DNA of 64,000 bases, taken from positions 7,812,001 through 7,876,000 of the forward strand of contig NZ_CP030050.1 in the NCBI RefSeq assembly GCF_015291705.1, in the 5' to 3' direction. This DNA comes from Bradyrhizobium arachidis (GTDB taxonomy: Bacteria; Pseudomonadota; Alphaproteobacteria; Rhizobiales; Xanthobacteraceae). The position numbers and the translations under genes were made by a program. Of this stretch, positions 23,074 to 36,612 are shown piece by piece. Each line of letters begins with the position of its first letter. The first letter of the stretch is position 1. The notes under the pieces are model-generated. The model ran no database searches. It had not been told where the DNA came from and saw nothing but the letters and a program-made list of their open reading frames with translations.

Positions 23074-23433
23074 CTTCGATCCCAAGGGGTGTTCGGCGGC
23101 GGACGCCGCCTGTCGAGGCAGGCGACAATCAACGTTCGAAGCGGCCAAATGGTTGCGCCTTTGTGACGAATTGTCGGCGTTGTGAATGCCCGTCCGCTCG
23201 CGAAAATGTCAGCATCGCAGCTCACCACGTGGCACAAAGCGGCCTTGCTTACATCACGCATCACGTTAACGATGGCTGGGCAGGCCGCTGGAACGAAAGC
23301 CGGATTGCAGGCATATTGCACGCCGGGGGACGGAGAGCCGCGGTGCTATTGTTTGAGCATGATCTTTCGGAAAACCGCTACACACTTTTCCGGATCATGC
23401 TCTAGCGTGAACAGGCCGGAGGCCAGACGTCAG
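23074..23433. other. Gene-free stretch before L,D-transpeptidase
   Basis: These 360 bases hold the promoters of two divergent envelope genes. The last third contains the second GAGCATGATC-family palindrome (23355-23405). A reading frame in phase with the downstream gene runs through it but crosses the palindrome and has no protein-like content. I see nothing else. Confidence 0.5.
23355..23405. repeat. GAGCATGATC-family palindrome (copy 2)
   Basis: This is nearly identical to the copy at 2000-2050: GAGCATGAT (23355-23363) pairs with ATCATGCTC (23394-23402), followed by TAG. It lies 29 bases upstream of the L,D-transpeptidase start, so it would be part of the promoter or leader. Confidence 0.85.
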
Positions 23434-24213
23434 ATGCGTTCATATTTAATCGCGTTCACTTCCCTGATGCTTTTGAGCGCGGGCACCGCGCACGCCAAGG
23501 TCGACATCACCGTCGACAAGGACAATCAGCAGATGACCGTCGTCGTCGACGGCGTGACCCGCTATCACTGGCCGGTGTCGACGGGCATCCCCTCGCGCGA
23601 GACGCCGAGCGGCGCCTTCCGCGCCTTCCGCATGGAAGAGGATCACTTCTCCAAGGAGTTCGACGACGCGCCGATGCCGCATTCGATCTTCTTCACCAAG
23701 GTCGGACACGCCATTCACGGCACCGACTCGGTCGGCCGTCTCGGCTCGCCGGCCTCGCATGGCTGCGTCCGGCTGTCGCGCCAGAACGCCTCGACGCTCT
23801 ACGCGCTGGTGCAGCAGCAGGGCGTGCTCAACACCACGGTGACGTTGACCGGCTCGGCGCAAGTGGCGCTGGCGCGCAACCCGCGCGGCCGCAATGCCAA
23901 TGCGGTCGCTCGCGCCCAGCAGCCGGCCGAAGAGCAATACGCCACCTCAGGCGATCCCGTGAATCTGGCGCCGCCGGCGCAACCCGCCCGCCGCTACATG
24001 CCGCAGGACGACAACTACATCTATCCGGCCGACGGCAGCGACACCGGCGCACGCTATCCGGCCCCGCGCTCTGCCGGCCGCCCGCTCTATGACGCGCAGG
24101 TTTATCAGCAGCAGCAGCCGCAGCAGTATTACAATCAGGGCTACGGCCAGCAGGGCTACTATCAGCAGCAGCCGCGGCAGTATTATCAGCCGCGCGGCTA
24201 CTATCAGAACTGA
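23434..24213 (+). CDS. L,D-transpeptidase with Gln/Tyr-rich tail
   Basis: ATG 23434 follows GGAGG by 11 bases and gives a signal peptide (MRSYLIAFTSLMLLSAGTAHA). The 259-residue product has a YkuD domain at about residues 22-140 with HAIHGTDSVGRLGSPASHGC; catalytic Cys111 and His109 are present. It would form 3-3 peptidoglycan cross-links or attach proteins to peptidoglycan in the periplasm. The last 45 residues are almost only Gln, Tyr, Gly, Pro and Asn (QQQQPQQYYNQGYGQQGYYQ), a low-complexity tail not needed for catalysis. Confidence 0.9.
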   Translation: MRSYLIAFTSLMLLSAGTAHAKVDITVDKDNQQMTVVVDGVTRYHWPVSTGIPSRETPSGAFRAFRMEEDHFSKEFDDAPMPHSIFFTKVGHAIHGTDSVGRLGSPASHGCVRLSRQNASTLYALVQQQGVLNTTVTLTGSAQVALARNPRGRNANAVARAQQPAEEQYATSGDPVNLAPPAQPARRYMPQDDNYIYPADGSDTGARYPAPRSAGRPLYDAQVYQQQQPQQYYNQGYGQQGYYQQQPRQYYQPRGYYQN

Positions 24214-25755: not shown

Positions 25756-26010
25756 ATGACTCGCGAGCAGATTTCGGATTTCTGCGTTACCGCTTTGGCC
25801 AATATCCTGCGCATCTCGAAGGATCGGGTCGACACCGGCACCAAGTTCAACCGCCTCGGCCTCGATTCGGCGATGCTGGTCTATCTCATGATGGAGCTCG
25901 AGGAGAAGCTCGACCTCGAGCTGTCGACGGACGACTTTTACGACCATCCGACCGTCGAGGCCCTGTCGCGATTTCTCGCCGACAAGCGCGCGATCCGCAC
26001 CGCCGCCTGA
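25756..26010 (+). CDS. Acyl carrier protein of a Dlt-like cassette
   Basis: This 84-residue protein has GGGA 7 bases before the ATG. The motif LGLDSAMLVYLMMELEEKL contains Ser38, the expected 4'-phosphopantetheine site, and the C-terminal helix EALSRFLADK is normal for the fold. The acyl-AMP ligase gene follows after 25 bases on the same strand. It is therefore a dedicated carrier that receives the fatty acyl group from that ligase, the position held by DltC in the D-alanine system. It is not the housekeeping AcpP, which sits near fabF. Confidence 0.9.
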   Translation: MTREQISDFCVTALANILRISKDRVDTGTKFNRLGLDSAMLVYLMMELEEKLDLELSTDDFYDHPTVEALSRFLADKRAIRTAA

Positions 26011-26035
26011 GAGCGGCTGACACCGGCGCAGCCCA

Positions 26036-27730
26036 ATGGACAGCTTCCGCTCGCTCGTGGCGCTCCTGGCGCGGCGCGCCGCGGAGCAGGCTGACGACCG
26101 CGCCTATGTCTTCGTCTCCGATCGCGGGACGGAAGAAGCCGCCCTCACCTTCCGCCAACTGCATAACGCTGCAAGCGCGCTTGCGGCGCGCCTGGGTGCG
26201 GCCGCACGGCCCGGCGAGCGCGCCATCCTGGTGTTTCCGCCCGGCATCGAATTCATGGTGGCGTTCTTCGGCTGCCTGATGGCCGGCATCATCGCGGTGC
26301 CGATGATGATGCCTCGGCGAAACAGCGCGCGCGACGCCAGCGCCGCGATCCTCGCCAATTGCACGCCGGCGCTGGCGCTGACCAGCTCGGCCTTCGCGCT
26401 CCGCGGCGATCTGCAAACGCGGTTTACGCAGGACAACATCCGCTGGATCGAGGTTGATCTTGCCGCCGATGCCGCGGCGGCAGTCGATCTGCCCGAGCCG
26501 ACGGCCGATGACATTGCGTTCCTGCAATACACCTCAGGTTCAACCTCGGAGCCCAAGGGCGTGATGGTGAGCCACGCCAACCTGCTCGCCAATCTCGAGA
26601 TGATCCGGCTCGCGCTCGGCAACACCAGACAGTCGACCTACGTCAACTGGGTGCCGCTCTATCACGACATGGGGCTGATCTTGAACGCGCTGCAGGCGTT
26701 CTATGTCGGAGCTACTTGTGTGCTGATAGCGCCGAATGCCTTCATGCAGCGGCCGCTTGGCTGGCTCCGCGCGATCTCGCATTACCGTGCGGAAGTGGCG
26801 TGCAGTCCGAATTTCGGCTTCGATCTCTGCGTCAGCCGCTATCGCGCCGACCAGATGGAGGGCGTCGATCTCTCCTCGCTCAGGATCGCGCTGAACGGCG
26901 CCGAGCCGGTGCATGCGGACACCATCGAGCGGTTCGTCACGGCTTTCTCGCCCCACGGATTCGATCCGCGCGCGATCTATCCGGCCTACGGCATGGCGGA
27001 AGCCACGCTGCTGATCTCCGGCGGACGCCGCGGCGGCGGTCACGTCACGCGCAGCGTGAGCCGCGCCGCGCTCCAGGCGCATGGAGCGGAGGCGCCGTCC
27101 GGCGCGGACGACACGCAGATCGTCGTCGGCTGCGGGCGCGCGCTGGCCGGCGAGCGCATCGCGATCGTGGAGCCGGAGCAGCGGACGCGTCTGCCCGCCG
27201 ACCGCGTCGGCGAGATCTGGGTGAACGGCGCCAATGTCGCCCGCGCCTATTGGCGCAACGAAGGGAGCCGCGACGGGCTCAATGCGGAGATCTTCGGCGA
27301 GGACGGCCCGTGGCTGCGCACCGGCGATCTCGGCTTCCTCGATGCGAATGGCGAGCTGTTCGTCACCGGGCGGATCAAGGACCTCATCATCATCCGCGGC
27401 ATCAACCATTATCCGCAGGACATCGAGCGCACGGTGCAATCGCTCGACGGTGCTTTGCGCGAGAACTGCGGTGCGGCGTTCTCGGTGCCGGACGAGGGCG
27501 AAGAGACGCTCGTCATCGTGCAGGAGGTCGAGCGCACCGCGCGCCACACCATCGACATCGCCGAGATCAAGGGACGGATCCGCGAGGCCGTCGCCGACAG
27601 CCACGAGCTCTCCGCGCGCCACATCGCGTTGATCCGCCCCGGCAGCCTGCCGAAGACCACCAGCGGCAAGATCCAGCGCAAGCTGGCGCGCAGGCTGTGG
27701 CTCGACGGCGGGCTGGAGGAGATCGGCTGA
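26036..27730 (+). CDS. Fatty-acyl-AMP ligase (FAAL)
   Basis: The 564-residue product is a full-length ANL-family adenylating enzyme. It shows the ATP-binding loop YTSGSTSEPKG (165-175), WVPLYHDMGLI (205-215), YPAYGMAEATL (315-325), the hinge region LRTGDLGFL and DLIIIRGINHYPQDIE, and the catalytic Lys in PKTTSGKIQRK. The segment around VGCGRAL and the YHDMGL and GINHYPQDIE blocks are typical of fatty-acyl-AMP ligases rather than CoA ligases. It would activate a free fatty acid to acyl-AMP and load it on the adjacent carrier protein. It ends 7 bases from the convergent SGNH gene. Confidence 0.92.
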   Translation: MDSFRSLVALLARRAAEQADDRAYVFVSDRGTEEAALTFRQLHNAASALAARLGAAARPGERAILVFPPGIEFMVAFFGCLMAGIIAVPMMMPRRNSARDASAAILANCTPALALTSSAFALRGDLQTRFTQDNIRWIEVDLAADAAAAVDLPEPTADDIAFLQYTSGSTSEPKGVMVSHANLLANLEMIRLALGNTRQSTYVNWVPLYHDMGLILNALQAFYVGATCVLIAPNAFMQRPLGWLRAISHYRAEVACSPNFGFDLCVSRYRADQMEGVDLSSLRIALNGAEPVHADTIERFVTAFSPHGFDPRAIYPAYGMAEATLLISGGRRGGGHVTRSVSRAALQAHGAEAPSGADDTQIVVGCGRALAGERIAIVEPEQRTRLPADRVGEIWVNGANVARAYWRNEGSRDGLNAEIFGEDGPWLRTGDLGFLDANGELFVTGRIKDLIIIRGINHYPQDIERTVQSLDGALRENCGAAFSVPDEGEETLVIVQEVERTARHTIDIAEIKGRIREAVADSHELSARHIALIRPGSLPKTTSGKIQRKLARRLWLDGGLEEIG

Positions 27731-27736
27731 GCCGAC

Positions 27737-28747
27737 TCAGAAATCGATCTTTGCGCCCTGACCGTCTCGCAGGCTCGCGGCGATGCCTTGCTCAATCCTG
27801 CGCGCGATGGCCGCGCGGTAGTGGACGAGATCCGTAAAATTGGCGGGATCACGCGTCAACGCGTTGTCGACGCGATAGTCGACCAGGTTGCTGTTTGCGC
27901 GCCCGCTGACAATGGAGCGGAAGGCTTCCCTGCAAGCCGCATGAACTGCGGCGTCGCGCGTGCCGGGAACAGGCACGATCGTGTAGAAGGTCGGGGGCAT
28001 CACCAGCACGACCGCCACCTCGCGCGGAAATTTTCCGATCGCGGCGGCCAGCATGTCCGCGTACGGAAAATGATCCGTGACTTTGCCTCTGAACGGCGCC
28101 GCGTTCGCCGGCTCCGCAGCAGTCGGATGCTTCGCGCCGGGCGCCCATAGTTCTTCGTAATTCCAATAGCCATCGGCGCGGACCGGCTGGCGGGCGCCGC
28201 GAGCGATGGCGATACGTTGGAATGAGCGATCGAGCGCGGCCCAGGTGAAGAGATGGCCGAGCTGGCGCAATGTGCCGCCCTCATAAAGCCAGTACGGAAA
28301 TGGGTCCTTCGACAGAGGCAAGACCGCCTGGCTGCACCAGGGCTGATCGATCGAGAAGACGAGGGCGCGGATCGTCTGGTGGTGCCGGGCAAAGAAATCG
28401 AGAATCGCGAGATCGCCGCGCGGATCGGCGCCAGGCGCGACAAGCTGAACGAAGCGCAGACCCGTCGCCTTGTCCAGTCGCGCAGGTTCGAGCAGCTGCC
28501 CGGTCGAATTGCCTAGGATGGCGGAATCAAATTGCGTGTCGCGGGCTCGGCTTACATTGGCCGTCCAGGGATTGCGGTCAGCCACGCCGCGAATGGCGAA
28601 GGGACCAAAACGGCCGCTATCGTAGGGATCGACAAGGATCACGAGGGTCGCAATCAACGCCGCGCCCAGCGCGAGCGCGCCAAAGCAGGCCACGAGGCAA
28701 CGGCTCCATCCGGATGAGACGTCAGAACTGGAAGTAGACGAACTCAT
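27737..28747 (-). CDS. SGNH-like, one-TM partner of MBOAT acyltransferase (DltD-like role)
   Basis: The 336-residue product has one N-terminal membrane segment (about residues 17-39) and a periplasmic domain. AILGNSTGQLLEP (Ser81) looks like an SGNH block I, and TDLVHYR near the end (Asp306, His309) fits the block V Asp-x-x-His. These are my reading of weakly conserved motifs, not a database match. Its start overlaps the end of the MBOAT gene by 26 bases, so the two form one unit. DltD and AlgX/AlgJ hold the same position beside their MBOAT partners. It probably accepts or transfers the acyl group outside the membrane. Confidence 0.75.
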   Translation of the reverse strand: MSSSTSSSDVSSGWSRCLVACFGALALGAALIATLVILVDPYDSGRFGPFAIRGVADRNPWTANVSRARDTQFDSAILGNSTGQLLEPARLDKATGLRFVQLVAPGADPRGDLAILDFFARHHQTIRALVFSIDQPWCSQAVLPLSKDPFPYWLYEGGTLRQLGHLFTWAALDRSFQRIAIARGARQPVRADGYWNYEELWAPGAKHPTAAEPANAAPFRGKVTDHFPYADMLAAAIGKFPREVAVVLVMPPTFYTIVPVPGTRDAAVHAACREAFRSIVSGRANSNLVDYRVDNALTRDPANFTDLVHYRAAIARRIEQGIAASLRDGQGAKIDF

Positions 28748-30104
28748 GGCCCCCTCGTTCGCCGATCTGAATCAGCAAGGCAAGAATGCCGACACCGAGC
28801 AGGCCCGCCAGCACCACGTTCGGACGGCGGGTGAAGAAAGCCACGATGTCCTGGCTCGCCGGCAGCACGAACGCGAACAACGGCGCTGCGATCAGCGGCC
28901 ACAACTGTCCACCGCGTTCGAGCGGCAGCGGCGACAACAGCCCGGAGAAGACATGCCAGGCCGCCTCCACCGATCCCGCGCGAAAGATCACGCCGGTCGC
29001 GAGCACGAACAGCACCGTGAGCGCCCAGCCGAGCCATGACGGGCAGCGCGGACCATAGCGCCGCCACAGCGAACAAACGACCTGCGCGAGTCCGTGCAGC
29101 ATGCCCCACAGCACAAAGGTCCAGCTCGCGCCGTGCCACAGGCCGCACAGCGCCATCGTGATCAGCATCGCGCCGAAGAATTGCACCGGCAGAAAGCGCC
29201 GCGGCAACAGGCGCGAATTGACCAGTGGGTAAAACACGTAGTCGCGCAGGAACAGCATCAGGGTGATGTGCCAGCGCTGCCAGAAATCCTGGATGTTGGT
29301 CGAGCGCAGCGGCGCGTTGAAATTGTACGGCAGTTGCACGCCGAACAGCAGGCCAAGGCCGATCGCGATGTCCGAATAGCCGGAGAAGTCGAACAGGATC
29401 TGGAATGAGAAGCAGAAGGCGAGCCAGGCATCGCCGCTTGGAAGCGGCCCATGTGCTGCCGCCGCGTAGATCGGATCGAGCAGATGCGCGATGCTGTCGG
29501 CAATCATGATCTTCTCGAACAGGCCGAGCGCGATGAAGCTGGTCGCGATGCAGAACTGGCGCTGCCAGCCCGGCACGTAAACCTGCCTTCCGAACTGGTG
29601 CATCACCTCCGACCAGCGCGCCAGCGGCCCTGCAATCGCCTGCGGGAAGAAGGCGATGTAGAGCGCGTAGCGGTCGAGCGCGTAGAGCGGCGCCTTGCCG
29701 CGCTTCAGATCGACCAGGTACATGATGTGGTGGAAAGTGAAGAAGGAGATGCCGAGCGGCAGCCCGATGTCGAGCGCCGGCAGCGTGGTGCCGAGCACGA
29801 GGCCGACATTGGCGAGCAGGAAGTTGGCGTATTTGAACAGCGCCAGCACCGCAAGATCGAGCACGATCACCAAGGTCAGCACGGCCTTCCACTTCACCCG
29901 CCCATAGACGACCGAGGCGAGCCAGTTGATCGCGATCGAGGCGATCAGCAGCAGGATGAAGGACGGACTGCCCCAGGCATAGAAGGCGAGCGACAGCGCG
30001 ACCTGCACGCCGATGCGCAAATGCGGATAAGGATCGGCCAGGCGGTAGATCAGCAGTGCCGCCGGCAGGAAGACCAGGAGAAAGGGGTAGTCGTTGAACA
30101 GCAT
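28722..30104 (-). CDS. MBOAT-family O-acyltransferase (AlgI/DltB type)
   Basis: The 460-residue protein is polytopic with about 11 membrane segments. The MBOAT marks are present: GLPLGISFFTFHHIMYLVD (114-132), FFPQAIAGPLARWSE (152-166), FWQRWHIT (274-281) and CGLWHGASWTF with the catalytic His324. Members move acyl groups from a cytoplasmic carrier to an acceptor on the outer face, as AlgI does for alginate and DltB for D-alanine. No alginate or cellulose genes are nearby, but an acyl carrier protein and an acyl-AMP ligase are. The acceptor is unknown. Confidence 0.92.
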   Translation of the reverse strand: MLFNDYPFLLVFLPAALLIYRLADPYPHLRIGVQVALSLAFYAWGSPSFILLLIASIAINWLASVVYGRVKWKAVLTLVIVLDLAVLALFKYANFLLANVGLVLGTTLPALDIGLPLGISFFTFHHIMYLVDLKRGKAPLYALDRYALYIAFFPQAIAGPLARWSEVMHQFGRQVYVPGWQRQFCIATSFIALGLFEKIMIADSIAHLLDPIYAAAAHGPLPSGDAWLAFCFSFQILFDFSGYSDIAIGLGLLFGVQLPYNFNAPLRSTNIQDFWQRWHITLMLFLRDYVFYPLVNSRLLPRRFLPVQFFGAMLITMALCGLWHGASWTFVLWGMLHGLAQVVCSLWRRYGPRCPSWLGWALTVLFVLATGVIFRAGSVEAAWHVFSGLLSPLPLERGGQLWPLIAAPLFAFVLPASQDIVAFFTRRPNVVLAGLLGVGILALLIQIGERGGHEFVYFQF

Positions 30105-30151
30105 CGGGTCAAAGCCGCGCCATCACCGGCGCTCGCGCCGGTCGATGACGC

Positions 30152-31129
30152 TCAGCCCGTTTCCAGATCGGGTGCGGCATCGCCCGGCTGCCGCAGCATG
30201 CGCCGCGCGATCTTCTCCTCGCTCGGCACCTTGACGTCCCAGGCGAGCCCCGCCGCTTCCAGCGCGCGGATGAAGATGAAGCCGGGATCGAACTCGAACC
30301 AGCGCAGGCCAAAGGCCGCGGAATACGGAAAGGCATGGTGGTTGTTGTGCCAGCCCTCACCCCAGGCGAGCCAGGCCATCACACCGAGATTGCGGCTGTT
30401 GTCGTCGCGGGTGACGAAGGGCTGCGTGCCAAAGGTGTGCATGACGGAGTTGATGGCCGAAAAGGTCTGCTCGACCACGAACATGCGCACCACGCCGCCC
30501 CACAGGAAGCCGTTCAGCGCGCCCCACGGGCTCATGGTGACGAGGCCGCCGATCGCCGCCGGCAGCACCAGGCCGAGCACGACCCAGCTGTAATAGTAGC
30601 TGTTGACGGCGACCAGCCTGCGGTCCGCCATCAAGTCTGGCACGTAGTGCGCCACGTTGGGATAATCGTGCGCGATCATCCAGGTCAGGTGCGCGTGCAG
30701 GAAACCGCGCAAGCGGCCGAGCAGGCTGTCGCCATGCAGAAGCGGCGAGTGCAGGTCGCCGTCGTGATCTGACAATTCGTGGTGGCGCCGGTGCATCGCC
30801 GCCCAGGACAGCATCGAGCCGCGGCCGGCCATCGACCCCATGATGATCAGCATCGCGCTCACCGTCGTGGAGGTCGCAAAGGCGCGGTGGGTGAACAGGC
30901 GGTGATAGCCGACGGTGAGGCCGAGGCCGGTGATCAGCCAGAAGCCGAGGAACAGGCCGAGCTCCATGGCACCGATCGGCCGGACGAACAACAGCCCCAG
31001 CGCAGCCAGCGCGCCGAGGAAGGGCAGCACATCGAAAAGGATGAAATGCCGCCGCTGCATCTTATGAAAATGCCGGCTGCGGATGATGCGGTGATCGCGT
31101 TTCTGTGGCACGGGCGGATTCCAATGCAA
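30152..31129 (-). CDS. Fatty acyl desaturase
   Basis: The three histidine boxes of membrane di-iron desaturases are intact: HRLFTH (76-81), HRRHH (113-117) and HNNHH in WGEGWHNNHHAFPYSA. Four membrane helices flank them. It belongs to the acyl-CoA/acyl-lipid delta-9-type group. The frame opens at TTG 31129; GTG 31111, with GGA upstream, and ATG 31060 are possible starts, and none has a strong ribosome-binding site. It lies 47 bases upstream of the MBOAT gene on the same strand, so it may set the unsaturation of the chain that the cassette transfers, or act on membrane lipids generally. Confidence 0.88.
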   Translation of the reverse strand: MHWNPPVPQKRDHRIIRSRHFHKMQRRHFILFDVLPFLGALAALGLLFVRPIGAMELGLFLGFWLITGLGLTVGYHRLFTHRAFATSTTVSAMLIIMGSMAGRGSMLSWAAMHRRHHELSDHDGDLHSPLLHGDSLLGRLRGFLHAHLTWMIAHDYPNVAHYVPDLMADRRLVAVNSYYYSWVVLGLVLPAAIGGLVTMSPWGALNGFLWGGVVRMFVVEQTFSAINSVMHTFGTQPFVTRDDNSRNLGVMAWLAWGEGWHNNHHAFPYSAAFGLRWFEFDPGFIFIRALEAAGLAWDVKVPSEEKIARRMLRQPGDAAPDLETG

Positions 31130-32438: not shown

Positions 32439-34718
32439 TCACTCCCCGTCCCTTATCCGCCGGTACAGCGCGCCCAAAATATTGGAATAATCGTCGGTCC
32501 AGACCCGCACCCTGTCGTCGGCTTCGGTTTCCTCCCATTGCTTGGAGGATGCGATCCTGCCGACGTCGTCCGCATCGCGCGCGGAAATGACGACGTCGGT
32601 GGAGAAGATGTAATCGGAATCGCGGCCCGAATCCTCGTTGTAGACCCAGCTCTTCAAATCGTTGGCGTCGGCGATGCCGACCACGACGGGCTCCAGATCG
32701 AGATGCCGGTTGGAGACGTGCATCACCACCGCGCCGTGCGGGGCGAGCTTGTCCTTGTAGATCTTCATCGCCTCTTCGGTCGCGAGGTGAATCGGGATCG
32801 CATCCGACGAATAGGCATCGACGATGATGAGATCGTAGGCGCCGTCGGGCTCCTTCGCGAAGGTCAGGCGTGCGTCGCCGATGACCGGCTTCAGGTCCGG
32901 CAGGCAGCTCGAGATGTAACGAAAATTCTTCGGATCCCGCGCCGCATCCACCATCGACTGGTCGATCTCGAAGAACTTCCAGTCCTCCCCTCGTTCGGCG
33001 GCGCAGGCGAGCGTGCCCGAGCCGACGCCGATTGCCGCGACCTTCAGCGGGCCGCCCTTGCGCTCGCGCATCGCGGTGACGGCCTGACCGATGCCGCCGT
33101 CCTTGTGATAGTAAGTGATCGGCTCCGGCCGGCCGGCGACGGGCGTGCCGTCATTGTTGAGGAAGCGCTCGGCGCCGTGGATGGTGGTGCCGTGCATCAG
33201 CACGTGGAAATAGCCGCCGGGCGTCACCACGATCTTGTGCACGCCGAAGAAGCTGCGCACCGTGGTGACGCGGCCCTCGTCCGCGGGATAAACGCGGATC
33301 AAGGCCAGCGCCAGCGCGACGGTGGCAAAGATCTTCCAGCGGTCTGCATTGAATGCCAGCGCCAGCAGCGCGGCGAGCACGCCGACGCCGCCGGCGACCC
33401 AGACGCGGTGATCCTCGAACCAGGTCGACAGATCACCCGTGGTGGTGGACGGCACAACCAGCGCGACCGCAAGCGCGGCGAGCACCAGCCAGTACCATTT
33501 GACGACACCGGCGAGACGCTCGCTGGCGGGCGGCCGGCACAGCGCGGCAAGCGCGACCAGGATCGGATATTCGGCGATCCATGAGAAGGTGAAGGGAGCA
33601 ACGAGACCGGCAAACAGCCCGCCGATCATGCCGCCGAACGACAGCGCGACATAGAAGCCGGTGAGATATTTGGCCGCCGGCCGGGTCCGCGCCAGCTCGC
33701 CATGACAGGCCATGGCGATGACGAAGAAGCAGAGCTGGTGCCCGCCGAGGGTCAGCAGCAGGTTCTGCTCGCCGCCGAATGCCAGCAGGACGATGACGCC
33801 CGCGATCGCAACCGGCTGGAGCATCAGCATCCATTTGTGGGGCAACAGCGGGCGCGACTGGAACACCACCACCCAGGTGAGCAGATACAGCGAGAGCGGC
33901 AGCACCCATAGCAGCGGCGCCGCCGCGACGTCGGTCGAGATATGCGCGGTGACGGCGATGAGCAGGCCGGACGGCACCGCGGCGAGGAAGATCCAGCGCA
34001 GCCGCGTCAGCAGACTCGGGGCCGGCGCATTGATCTCCTCGGTTTGCGCATCGACCACGGGAAGCTTCGGCGAGCGCAGCAGCAACACGCCGCAGCCGCC
34101 GATCAGCAGGATCAGCAGGCCATAGCCGGCGGTCCAGAACCGGTTCTGCGTGTGCAGCGTGAACATCGGCTCCAGCAGGAAGGGATAGGACAACAGCGCG
34201 AGGAAGCTGCCGATGTTGGAGGAGGCATAGAGGAAATAGGGATCGTGGCCGGCAGGATGGCCGGTGCGGACGAACCAGGCTTGCAGCAGCGGGTTGTTGG
34301 CGGCGAGCGCGAAGAACGGCAGGCCGATCGAGACCACGAACAGGCCGAGCAGCCAGAATGCGTAGCCCGACGCCGGCGGCTCGCCATAGGCAGAGGCGAT
34401 GCCGAGCGGCAGGGTGGCGAAGGCCGCGATCAGCAGCATCAGATGCACCACGACGGGAACGATGCGGTTCCTGACCTGCATCAACAGATGCGCATAGGCA
34501 TAGCCGGCAAGCAGCAGCGACTGGAAGAACACCATCGCCACCGACCACACCGCCGGCGAGCCGCCGAGCCGCGGCAGCACCATCTTCGTGAACAGCGGCT
34601 GCACCGAGAACAGCAACAGCGCGCTGACGAAGATCGCGGCGGTGTAGACCGTCAGCAGCAGCCGGTTGCGCGACGACGACGGCTGCTCCGTGGCGGCGGG
34701 TTGCACGATCGAATCCAT
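32439..34718 (-). CDS. Membrane-fused spermidine-synthase-like protein
   Basis: I start at ATG 34718 (MDSIVQPAATEQPSSSRNRL); the frame continues upstream through two palindromes. The 759-residue product has about 14 membrane segments (to about residue 515) followed by a spermidine-synthase-like Rossmann domain: VAAIGVGSGTLACAAERG, FFEIDQSMVDAARDP, VIGDARLTF and LIIVDAYSSDAIPIHL. Fused proteins of this layout are widespread but uncharacterised; polyamine synthesis is possible but unproven. The 5' leader contains a perfect 13-base-arm palindrome 17 bases before the start. Confidence 0.85.
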   Translation of the reverse strand: MDSIVQPAATEQPSSSRNRLLLTVYTAAIFVSALLLFSVQPLFTKMVLPRLGGSPAVWSVAMVFFQSLLLAGYAYAHLLMQVRNRIVPVVVHLMLLIAAFATLPLGIASAYGEPPASGYAFWLLGLFVVSIGLPFFALAANNPLLQAWFVRTGHPAGHDPYFLYASSNIGSFLALLSYPFLLEPMFTLHTQNRFWTAGYGLLILLIGGCGVLLLRSPKLPVVDAQTEEINAPAPSLLTRLRWIFLAAVPSGLLIAVTAHISTDVAAAPLLWVLPLSLYLLTWVVVFQSRPLLPHKWMLMLQPVAIAGVIVLLAFGGEQNLLLTLGGHQLCFFVIAMACHGELARTRPAAKYLTGFYVALSFGGMIGGLFAGLVAPFTFSWIAEYPILVALAALCRPPASERLAGVVKWYWLVLAALAVALVVPSTTTGDLSTWFEDHRVWVAGGVGVLAALLALAFNADRWKIFATVALALALIRVYPADEGRVTTVRSFFGVHKIVVTPGGYFHVLMHGTTIHGAERFLNNDGTPVAGRPEPITYYHKDGGIGQAVTAMRERKGGPLKVAAIGVGSGTLACAAERGEDWKFFEIDQSMVDAARDPKNFRYISSCLPDLKPVIGDARLTFAKEPDGAYDLIIVDAYSSDAIPIHLATEEAMKIYKDKLAPHGAVVMHVSNRHLDLEPVVVGIADANDLKSWVYNEDSGRDSDYIFSTDVVISARDADDVGRIASSKQWEETEADDRVRVWTDDYSNILGALYRRIRDGE

Positions 34719-34734
34719 GAAAGCTCCGGCAAAA

Positions 34735-34777
34735 GCGTTTTCCAGCGAAGCGGGCACCGGTTCGCGCTGGAAAACGC
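34735..34777. repeat. Palindrome in the 5' leader of the spermidine-synthase-like gene
   Basis: GCGTTTTCCAGCG (34735-34747) and CGCTGGAAAACGC (34765-34777) are perfect 13-base inverted arms. The element lies just upstream of the minus-strand start at 34718 and would form a hairpin in that mRNA leader. Confidence 0.85.
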
Positions 34778-34889
34778 GTCGAATAACTCCCCCGGCGGGC
34801 GCCGGACCGCGCGCAATGGAGCACACCGCGCCTGAACGGGCAATAAAGGGGCACGTGATGTTGCAGCGTGGAATGCTTGATATAGAGAT

Positions 34890-34989
34890 GTCATTCCGGG
34901 GCGATGCGCAGCATCGAACCCGGAACCTCGAGATTCTCCGGTGCGGAGCCCGCACCATAGTTCGATGCTGCGCATCGCCCCGGAATGAC
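34890..34989. repeat. GTCATTCCGGGG-family palindrome with 29-base arms
   Basis: Positions 34891-34919 and 34960-34988 are perfect inverted arms of 29 bases, from TCATTCCGGGG inward. This is the longest perfect palindrome I found in the window. It ends 13 bases upstream of the FAD oxidoreductase start. Confidence 0.9.
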
Positions 34990-35001
34990 GCCAGAGACAT
35001 C

Positions 35002-36612
35002 ATGACCGAAACCGACGTCGTCATCATCGGCGCTGGCCATAATGGCCTCACCTGCGCGGCCTATCTCGCGATGACAGGTCTGCGCGTGCGCGTGGTCGAG
35101 CACCGCAAGGTGGTCGGCGGGGCCGCGGTCACCGAGGAGTTTCATCCTGGTTTCCGCAATTCGGTCGCCGCCTACACGGTGAGCCTGCTCAATCCGCAGG
35201 TGATCCGCGACTTGGGCCTCGCCGAGCAGGGCCTGCGAATCGTCGAGCGGCGCGCGCAGAATTTCCTGCCCGCGCCTGATGGCAGCTATCTCCTCACCGG
35301 CGAGGGACGGACCAAAGCGTCGGTCGCACGGCTGAGCGCGCATGATGCGGAGGCGCTTGACGGCTTCTCGCGCGAGCTGGAGGACATCGCCGACGTGCTC
35401 AGGCAATTCGTGCTGCGCGCACCGCCGAACCTGCTCGACGGTTTCGGCCCGAACGCGATCCGCGAGGCCGTCAACGCATTGCAGAGCGCCAACATCCTGC
35501 GCGGGCTCACATTGGAACAGAGCCGCAGCCTGCTTGACCTCTTCACCCGCTCGGCCGGCGAGATGCTGGACGAGCGCTTCGAGCATGATCTGGTCAAGGC
35601 GCTGTTCGGCTTCGATGCCATCGTCGGCAATTACGCCAGCCCCTACGCCGCCGGCTCGGCCTATGTGATGCTGCACCACGCCTTTGGCGAGGTGAACGGC
35701 AAGAAGGGCGTCTGGGGCCACGCCATCGGCGGCATGGGTGCGATCACGCAGGCGATGGCGCGCGCCGCGCAGAGCCGTGGTGTCGTGATCGACCTTGATG
35801 CCGGCGTGCGCGAGGTGATCGTCGAGCGCGATCGGGCCGTCGGCGTGGTGCTGGAGAACGGCACGACCATTCGCGCGAAATACGTCGCGGCCAACGTCAA
35901 TCCAAAGCTGCTCTACACGCACCTGATCGCGGCCGATGCCCTGCCTCAGGATTTCCTCGCCCGTATCAGGCATTGGAAGAACGGCTCCGGCACCTTCCGC
36001 ATGAATGTGGCGCTGGACCGCCTGCCCTCCTTCACGGCGCTGCCTGATGATGGCGATCACCTCACCTCCGGCATCATCATCGCGCCAAGCCTTCCCTACA
36101 TGGACCGCGCGTATCTGGATGCGCGCGCGCAGGGCTGGAGCAGGTCACCCGTCGTCGAGATGCTGATCCCCTCGACGCTCGACGACACGCTCGCGCCGGA
36201 AGGCAAGCACGTCGCCAGCCTGTTCTGTCAGCATGTCGCGCCGGAGCTGCCCGACGGAAAGTCCTGGGACGACCATCGCGACGAGGTCGCCGATCTCATG
36301 ATCGCGACGGTGGATAACTATGCGCCGGGCTTTGCGGCAAGCGTGCTCGGCCGCCAGATCCTGTCGCCGCTCGACCTCGAACGGCAGTTCGGCCTCCTCG
36401 GCGGCGACATCTTCCACGGCGCGCTGACCCTGAACCAGCTGTTCTCGGCGCGGCCGATGCTGGGCCATGCCGATTATCGCGGCCCCCTCAAGGGCCTCTA
36501 TCATTGCGGCTCCGGCGCCCATCCCGGCGGCGGCGTCACCGGCGCCCCCGGCCACAACGCGGCGCAGGCGATCCTGAGGGATCACCGCTCGCTGTTCGGA
36601 AGCCGTGGATAG
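35002..36612 (+). CDS. FAD-dependent oxidoreductase, phytoene-desaturase/PYROXD2-like
   Basis: ATG 35002 follows AGAGA by a few bases. The 536-residue product begins with an FAD-binding Rossmann motif (VVIIGAGHNGLTCAAYLAMT), followed by EHRKVVGGAAVTEEFHPGF, and ends with the second FAD stretch YHCGSGAHPGGGVTGAPGHN. This layout matches the CrtI-like NAD(P)/FAD oxidoreductases, closest to the PYROXD2 group. No carotenoid genes adjoin it, so a carotenoid role is unlikely. Its substrate is unknown. The stop codon overlaps the first of a set of DnaA-box-like 9-mers. Confidence 0.88.
   Translation: MTETDVVIIGAGHNGLTCAAYLAMTGLRVRVVEHRKVVGGAAVTEEFHPGFRNSVAAYTVSLLNPQVIRDLGLAEQGLRIVERRAQNFLPAPDGSYLLTGEGRTKASVARLSAHDAEALDGFSRELEDIADVLRQFVLRAPPNLLDGFGPNAIREAVNALQSANILRGLTLEQSRSLLDLFTRSAGEMLDERFEHDLVKALFGFDAIVGNYASPYAAGSAYVMLHHAFGEVNGKKGVWGHAIGGMGAITQAMARAAQSRGVVIDLDAGVREVIVERDRAVGVVLENGTTIRAKYVAANVNPKLLYTHLIAADALPQDFLARIRHWKNGSGTFRMNVALDRLPSFTALPDDGDHLTSGIIIAPSLPYMDRAYLDARAQGWSRSPVVEMLIPSTLDDTLAPEGKHVASLFCQHVAPELPDGKSWDDHRDEVADLMIATVDNYAPGFAASVLGRQILSPLDLERQFGLLGGDIFHGALTLNQLFSARPMLGHADYRGPLKGLYHCGSGAHPGGGVTGAPGHNAAQAILRDHRSLFGSRG

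Follow-up and report, generated by a model that had tools for sequence, protein, structure and literature searches.

A five-gene cassette of Bradyrhizobium arachidis as a candidate carrier-fed relay of fatty acyl groups to the cell envelope

The DNA analyzed here, referred to as the window, is a stretch of 64,000 nt from Bradyrhizobium arachidis (NZ_CP030050.1, 7,812,001-7,876,000), the genome of which is a 9.87-Mb single contig. The window contains a block of five genes, hereafter the cassette, encoding an acyl carrier protein (ACP), a fatty acyl-AMP ligase (FAAL), a transferase of SGNH fold, an MBOAT acyltransferase and a membrane fatty acid desaturase (Table 1). An earlier note on this DNA had described the block as a Dlt-like machine that may transfer a fatty acyl group. 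Open reading frame (ORF) calls verified all five genes at the positions given in Table 1, together with Ser38 of the ACP, His324 of the MBOAT and the strands that the note had reported. The ACP and FAAL genes are read rightward and the SGNH, MBOAT and desaturase genes leftward, with the MBOAT and SGNH genes sharing 26 bases. Four of the families were confirmed by Pfam, i.e., PP-binding (57 bits, cut-off 20.8), AMP-binding (232, cut-off 29.9), MBOAT (68, cut-off 27) and FA_desaturase (75, cut-off 29.7). The SGNH protein had no family match in Pfam or NCBIfam, and its fold was seen from a structure model. The TTG start of the desaturase is perhaps a few codons too early, since orthologues align only from residue 3-11 on.

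Table 1. The cassette genes, their key residues and the flanking genes, in positions of the window
Feature	Position	Strand	Remarks
ACP	25756..26010	+	84 aa; GLDS with Ser38, codon 25867-25869
FAAL	26036..27730	+	564 aa
SGNH-fold transferase	27737..28747	-	one N-terminal helix, 12-39
SGNH residues Ser81; Asp306 and His309	28505-28507; 27821-27832		invariant
MBOAT acyltransferase	28722..30104	-	460 aa; His324 codon 29133-29135
FxYxxF acyl-shuttle motif at the MBOAT C-terminus	28725..28742	-	FVYFQF, residues 455-460, Tyr457
MBOAT segment matching the DltB horizontal helix HC	29169..29255	-	residues 284-312
MBOAT Val295-Asn296	29217-29222	-	at the diglycine position of other relatives
Membrane fatty acid desaturase	30152..31129	-	325 aa
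Left flank gene	23182..24213	+	L,D-transpeptidase-like by reading; conserved in non-carriers
Right flank gene	32439..35051	-	870-aa ORF; conserved in non-carriers

The distribution of the genes was followed in one draw of 79 Bradyrhizobium genomes, used alike for the SGNH, MBOAT, FAAL and desaturase searches. Close orthologues (SGNH at least 47%, MBOAT at least 66%, FAAL at least 70%, desaturase at least 75%) occur in an identical set of 10 genomes for all four, and the ACP gene, located by its neighborhood and not by a genome-wide search, adjoins FAAL in 10/10 carriers. The chance of two genes with 10 carriers each coinciding by lot is about 1 in 1.4e12, which argues for inheritance of the block as one unit and bears out the co-occurrence that the note had proposed to check. 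The remaining 69 genomes hold weaker homologs only, of the MBOAT in 56 (at most 46%), of the FAAL in 15 (37-42%, 12 of them within open frames of more than 3,000 residues) and of the desaturase at no more than 41%. Among named records, the closest SGNH genes come from five Bradyrhizobium assemblies and one Bradyrhizobiaceae assembly. The layout was identical in all 16 Bradyrhizobium cassettes examined, with a broken desaturase frame at one locus (L034). In each of 18 non-carriers inspected, represented by one to about twenty contigs, both flank genes stand together, 0.2-4.5 kb apart, with none of the five genes between them. One carrier, G047, has its cassette (L032) at a different site, adjoining a fragment that reads as terminase-like and another MBOAT-SGNH pair, which bears the diglycine; the contig of another, G015 (L029), is too short to judge the site.

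The structure model of the MBOAT is DltB-like, with two additional C-terminal helices (395-413 and 430-449). Behind them lies an FxYxxF motif, defined as an acyl shuttle in the part of PMC12148441 consulted. This tail is present at 18/18 cassette loci, His324 is invariant in 12/12 MBOATs, and the protein combines three features of the MBOAT-SGNH class, namely an MBOAT domain with the catalytic His, FxYxxF behind extra helices and an SGNH partner. The SGNH proteins carry NS and DxxHY motifs at all 18 cassette loci, as the ACPs carry GLDSAM. Like PatA, the MBOAT has its own tyrosine shuttle after additional C-terminal helices, which places the transferase half with the Pat/Alg kind and leaves the Dlt-like character to the supply half alone; the idea of a Dlt-like machine stands for that half, but not for the MBOAT, which is no plain DltB. 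AlgX and AlgJ were not among the 50 matches listed for the alignment of the SGNH model, a result that excludes nothing.

A probable link between the two halves is helix HC of the MBOAT. Six DltB residues contact DltC (Met302, Val305, Ile306, Met309, Lys312 and Arg317, according to the section of PMC11035591 available to us), and all six letters match the DltB chain used for our alignment, which makes the register sure. Val295-Asn296 of the window MBOAT aligns with DltB Val305-Ile306, and in 53 of 53 non-redundant MBOATs with a diglycine the two glycines fall exactly at these positions. In the first comparison the diglycine was absent from 18/18 FAAL-linked MBOATs and present in 25/25 others. 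A wider look, begun after this difference had been seen, covered a further 20 loci, of which 18 were alignable at HC; 15 had the diglycine, one of them by visual count, and 3 lacked it. These 3, as well as 7 diglycine-free MBOATs found later, are neighbored by an FkbH-like gene and an ORF for an ACP. Among 78 non-redundant MBOATs, an ACP gene lies within 5 kb of 25/25 proteins without the diglycine and 1/53 with it, the single exception owing its ACP to a neighboring cassette. Two aligned DltB sequences, likewise carrier-fed, also lack the diglycine. The Fisher value of this association, 1.5e-19, is, given few changes and long branches, not readable as that many independent observations. The tree requires four changes, three of them on well-supported branches and practically always in the expected direction.

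These counts depend on how the loci and the ACPs were collected. The first ACP profile, trained on FAAL-side ACPs and applied within 4 kb, found an ACP at 16/25 diglycine-free MBOATs; 8 FkbH-side ACPs escaped it, as did that of L040, which lies too far off, and a second profile was therefore used within 5 kb. That profile includes three FkbH-side ACPs (L139, L141, L142), which are found by construction. Forty stretches were hand-picked from non-cassette MBOAT places, several with short one-sided flanks of 19 to ~2,000 bases, so the absence of an ACP is weaker there (e.g., L173, L184, L158, L084, L087). Two of the 20 loci of the wider look, as well as L042, L079-L082, L090 and L160, were excluded for an unalignable HC segment, and five rows with a repeated segment were omitted from the non-redundant counts.

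An FkbH-like protein, an ACP and an MBOAT occur together at ten loci of other Bradyrhizobium genomes (L139, L140, L141, L142, L143, L144, L169, L181, L182, L183), mostly accompanied by a protein that reads as a putative SGNH type (the one submitted to Pfam gave no hit). In Pfam, 3/5 of the ACPs pass PP-binding (no match for L140 and L141), and 2/3 of the FkbH-like proteins match FkbH_N (no match for that of L142). These loci apparently represent a second carrier-fed MBOAT class, which perhaps moves a glyceryl group. The FxYxxF tail was seen in 6/8 FkbH-side MBOATs checked; it is lacking in the 405-aa MBOATs at L140:8835-10052 and L182:3331-4548, for which a shuttle peptide of separate origin may be required, as it is for DltB. 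With diglycine MBOATs taken to use acyl-CoA, by analogy with PatA, we lean slightly toward the view that a general class of the MBOAT-SGNH acyltransferases of Gram-negative bacteria is carrier-fed, fatty acyl groups being supplied by FAAL-ACP and a small, perhaps glyceryl, group by FkbH-ACP as at least two arms, and the donor being readable from HC, where a diglycine would mean acyl-CoA and side chains a carrier protein.

The best explanation of the layout, co-inheritance, motifs and HC/ACP association observed, and one that we regard as probable, is a carrier-fed trans-membrane relay that brings a fatty acyl group onto an envelope acceptor. Its chemistry, chain and acceptor we infer. Judging from family and gene order, FAAL would adenylate a free fatty acid and load it on the phosphopantetheine of ACP Ser38. 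The desaturase, which is associated with FAAL and ACP in unrelated clusters as well, would add a double bond, probably on the ACP-bound chain. The acyl-ACP would then dock on the cytoplasmic side of the MBOAT at HC, where side chains stand in place of the diglycine, and His324 would transfer the chain to Tyr457 of the protein's own FxYxxF tail, two steps suggested by DltB, PatA and the ACP-linked change in HC. In the periplasm, Ser81 of the SGNH protein would accept the chain and deliver it to a molecule of the envelope, for which a glycan is the likeliest candidate. The division of labor that the note had envisaged, with activation and loading inside, the MBOAT across the membrane and the SGNH protein outside, is in this form supported as far as sequences can speak.

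The wider relatives of the two halves bear on the question whether the five genes are merely unrelated neighbors, with FAAL, ACP and desaturase making a secreted or membrane lipid in the manner of JamABC and the MBOAT-SGNH pair acting as an ordinary acetyl-CoA-fed polysaccharide O-acetylase. Among order-wide stretches found with the SGNH profile, 13/18 have an MBOAT match and 0/18 a FAAL, ACP or desaturase match; six further loci (L041, L043-L047) likewise have MBOAT-SGNH with neither this FAAL nor an ACP of this kind, and at L043, which has no ACP, an acyl-activating enzyme of distant similarity (27%) lies ~5 kb off. FAAL, ACP and desaturase genes cluster, with neither a match to MBOAT nor an annotation as such, in four genomes from a different family (L063-L066) and in all four plasmid records that hold desaturase relatives at E 1e-60 or better (those of Rhodococcus opacus, Pseudonocardia alni, Thalassospira marina and Polaromonas sp.), where a methyltransferase comes after the ACP and a P450 is present in 3/4. 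Similar clusters of desaturase, ACP, methyltransferase, P450 and FAAL were noticed at L063-L066, L114, L116 and L118, several with a thioesterase; they are common to Alphaproteobacteria and Actinomycetota, plasmids included. Since each half is found alone in wider relatives, the cassette was assembled from two older modules. The cassette FAALs form one clade (support 100/99) with the FAAL-ACP pair of L062 as its sister (98/95), which fits a single joining. That the halves live apart elsewhere favors unrelated neighbors, yet within the cassette lineage they are all-or-none across the 79 genomes and together at 18/18 loci compared, so the independence that the note had named as a refutation gave a mixed answer. 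Furthermore, the cassette contains no polyketide or peptide synthase, an adjoining alpha/beta hydrolase is found in only 1 (L026) of 13 further cassette loci, and the loss of the HC diglycine accompanies the ACP gene. We therefore consider chance neighborhood unlikely.

A carrier that brings a non-fatty acid, such as a hydroxy, aromatic or terpenoid acid, with the desaturase acting elsewhere, seems to us slightly less likely again. In its favor, the sequence does not disclose the substrate, the desaturase is missing at two loci from a different genus, and other MBOATs adjoin FkbH-ACP, presumably for a C3 acyl group. The ligase itself, in contrast, resembles enzymes of fatty acids, AMP-ligase chains and models being its top matches with the exception of PRK07768. 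Its best three solved chains (482-480 bits) are labelled Polyketide synthase, which we take to be a FAAL domain; chains annotated as fatty-acid--AMP ligase or as fatty acyl-adenylate ligase score 316-231 bits, other chains labelled Acyl-CoA synthase, some of them presumably FadD32-like, 333-249 bits, and the first plain CoA-ligase-like chain reaches 107 bits. By this comparison, the sequence is nearer to FAALs than to acyl-CoA ligases. The desaturase also speaks for a fatty chain, being present in 16/16 Bradyrhizobium cassettes (one frame broken) and in FAAL-ACP clusters elsewhere. An order-wide search (E 1e-60 or better) found it in 8/387 genomes, i.e., 3 cassette carriers, 4 genomes of family f41 and G395 (40%), and its nearest inspected outside kin adjoin FAAL and ACP, so that it belongs to the donor arm, as the note had supposed.

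The acceptor was approached through the SGNH protein, of which two types exist. They are 46-51% identical, while their partners between the same loci are far closer (FAAL 78-88%, MBOAT 82-90%, ACP 89-100%); the type differing from that of the window stands at L034, L036-L038, L060 and L061. SGNH and partner trees disagree, each data set rejecting the other's grouping (p 0.0002 and 1e-57), and the SGNH gene was swapped once with its partners retained. Several exchanges were rejected, as the trees need only one. If the SGNH protein picks the acceptor, one donor arm would serve two acceptors, which would suit variable surface glycans over a constant lipid. Two genomes from a different genus of the family have ACP-FAAL immediately behind chvA/ndvA, the gene of the glucan exporter, within ~40-50 bases (L039:5620-7713 and L040:13655-15974; 909 bits at L039, cut-off 733). 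The gene is single-copy in 20/20 family genomes searched and is located elsewhere in the Bradyrhizobium carriers among them, for which reason a cyclic-glucan acceptor was not adopted; the neighborhood in the other genus remains a hint that points weakly to a periplasmic glucan. A hopanoid-lipid A ligase, joining a C35 hopanoid acid to the very-long-chain fatty acid of lipid A, would require activation of a bulky carboxylate and, perhaps, outward transfer, and the enzyme attaching the C35 hopanoid is named as still to be identified in the portion of PMC5613085 seen; as a main reading it was rejected because the cassette is in 10/79 genomes only, and it is highly improbable, since that portion reports hopanoid-lipid A for BTAi1 and ORS278 (strains whose cassette status lies outside our comparison) and cites a title on it in Bradyrhizobium species, no hopanoid gene was recognized among the neighbors examined, and the desaturase would be left without a role.

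Several observations weigh against the relay as we propose it. The MBOAT tail is modelled with a confidence (pLDDT) below 50. The desaturase is not essential, as the loci L039 and L040 have ACP-FAAL and SGNH-MBOAT without it, and at L034:7018-7979 its frame is split into two overlapping pieces, the other four genes matching at full length. In NCBIfam the FAAL scores 452-339 bits with AMP-ligase models, all models being below cut-off, and amid these stands PRK07768, a long-chain-fatty-acid--CoA ligase, at 356 bits (next CoA ligase 182); FAAL-like enzymes may also take carboxylates other than fatty acids. G304, the genome of L062, gave no SGNH match genome-wide, though the contig stops 0.3 kb past the ACP. 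The HC/ACP link amounts to only 3-4 independent changes, on long branches that meet on the tree, too few for a sign test, and the DltC docking residues Met36, Val39 and Glu40 are only partly matched in the ACP (Ala39, Val42, Tyr43).

If the proposed relay is true, a long-chain acyl group, beyond acetyl and D-alanyl, would be passed outward by a Gram-negative MBOAT-SGNH relay with a dedicated ACP. This would contradict the statement, in the excerpt of PMC12148441 at hand, that a carrier is absent from all MBOAT/SGNH pathways except Dlt, evidently through acyl-CoA use. The two-residue marker in HC could predict the donor type of uncharacterized MBOATs, and lipidated surface molecules would be predicted in legume symbionts and soil bacteria. 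Should the general carrier-fed class be true as well, envelope glycans would carry fatty-acyl and glyceryl esters, which have hardly been looked for so far.

In the openly licensed literature, no paper was found that holds both MBOAT and fatty acyl-AMP ligase terms, nor a description of a Dlt-type supply joined to a Pat/Alg-type transferase; a term search of the FAAL review PMC11837247 found MBOAT, polysaccharide and outer membrane absent. Among the papers listed for FkbH, MBOAT and acyl carrier protein, one holds all three, the aeruginosin paper PMC10143770; in the passages seen, FkbH acts on one part of the peptide and MBOAT on another. Compared with the Dlt pathway (DltA, DltC, DltB, DltX, DltD), the cassette has a FAAL instead of the D-alanine enzyme, plus a desaturase, and its shuttle tyrosine is on a tail fused to the MBOAT, whereas that of Dlt is on the separate microprotein DltX. 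Its ACP falls below the cut-off of the DltC model (17.3 vs 68 bits), as does its MBOAT for the DltB equivalog TIGR04091 (172.5 vs 375 bits). The cassette falls outside the Dlt family; it is of the MBOAT-SGNH kind and would work like Dlt. With O-acetylation of the PatA-PatB/AlgI type it shares an MBOAT with extra C-terminal helices and FxYxxF and an anchored SGNH partner. The donor of PatA is acetyl-CoA, whereas in the cassette a carrier and a ligase are present and the HC diglycine is gone. With starter modules of the JamABC type (JamA and its desaturase are treated in the accessible part of PMC11837247), 16/16 Bradyrhizobium cassettes share FAAL, ACP and membrane desaturase together, but an MBOAT-SGNH pair stands where a polyketide or peptide synthase assembly line would follow.

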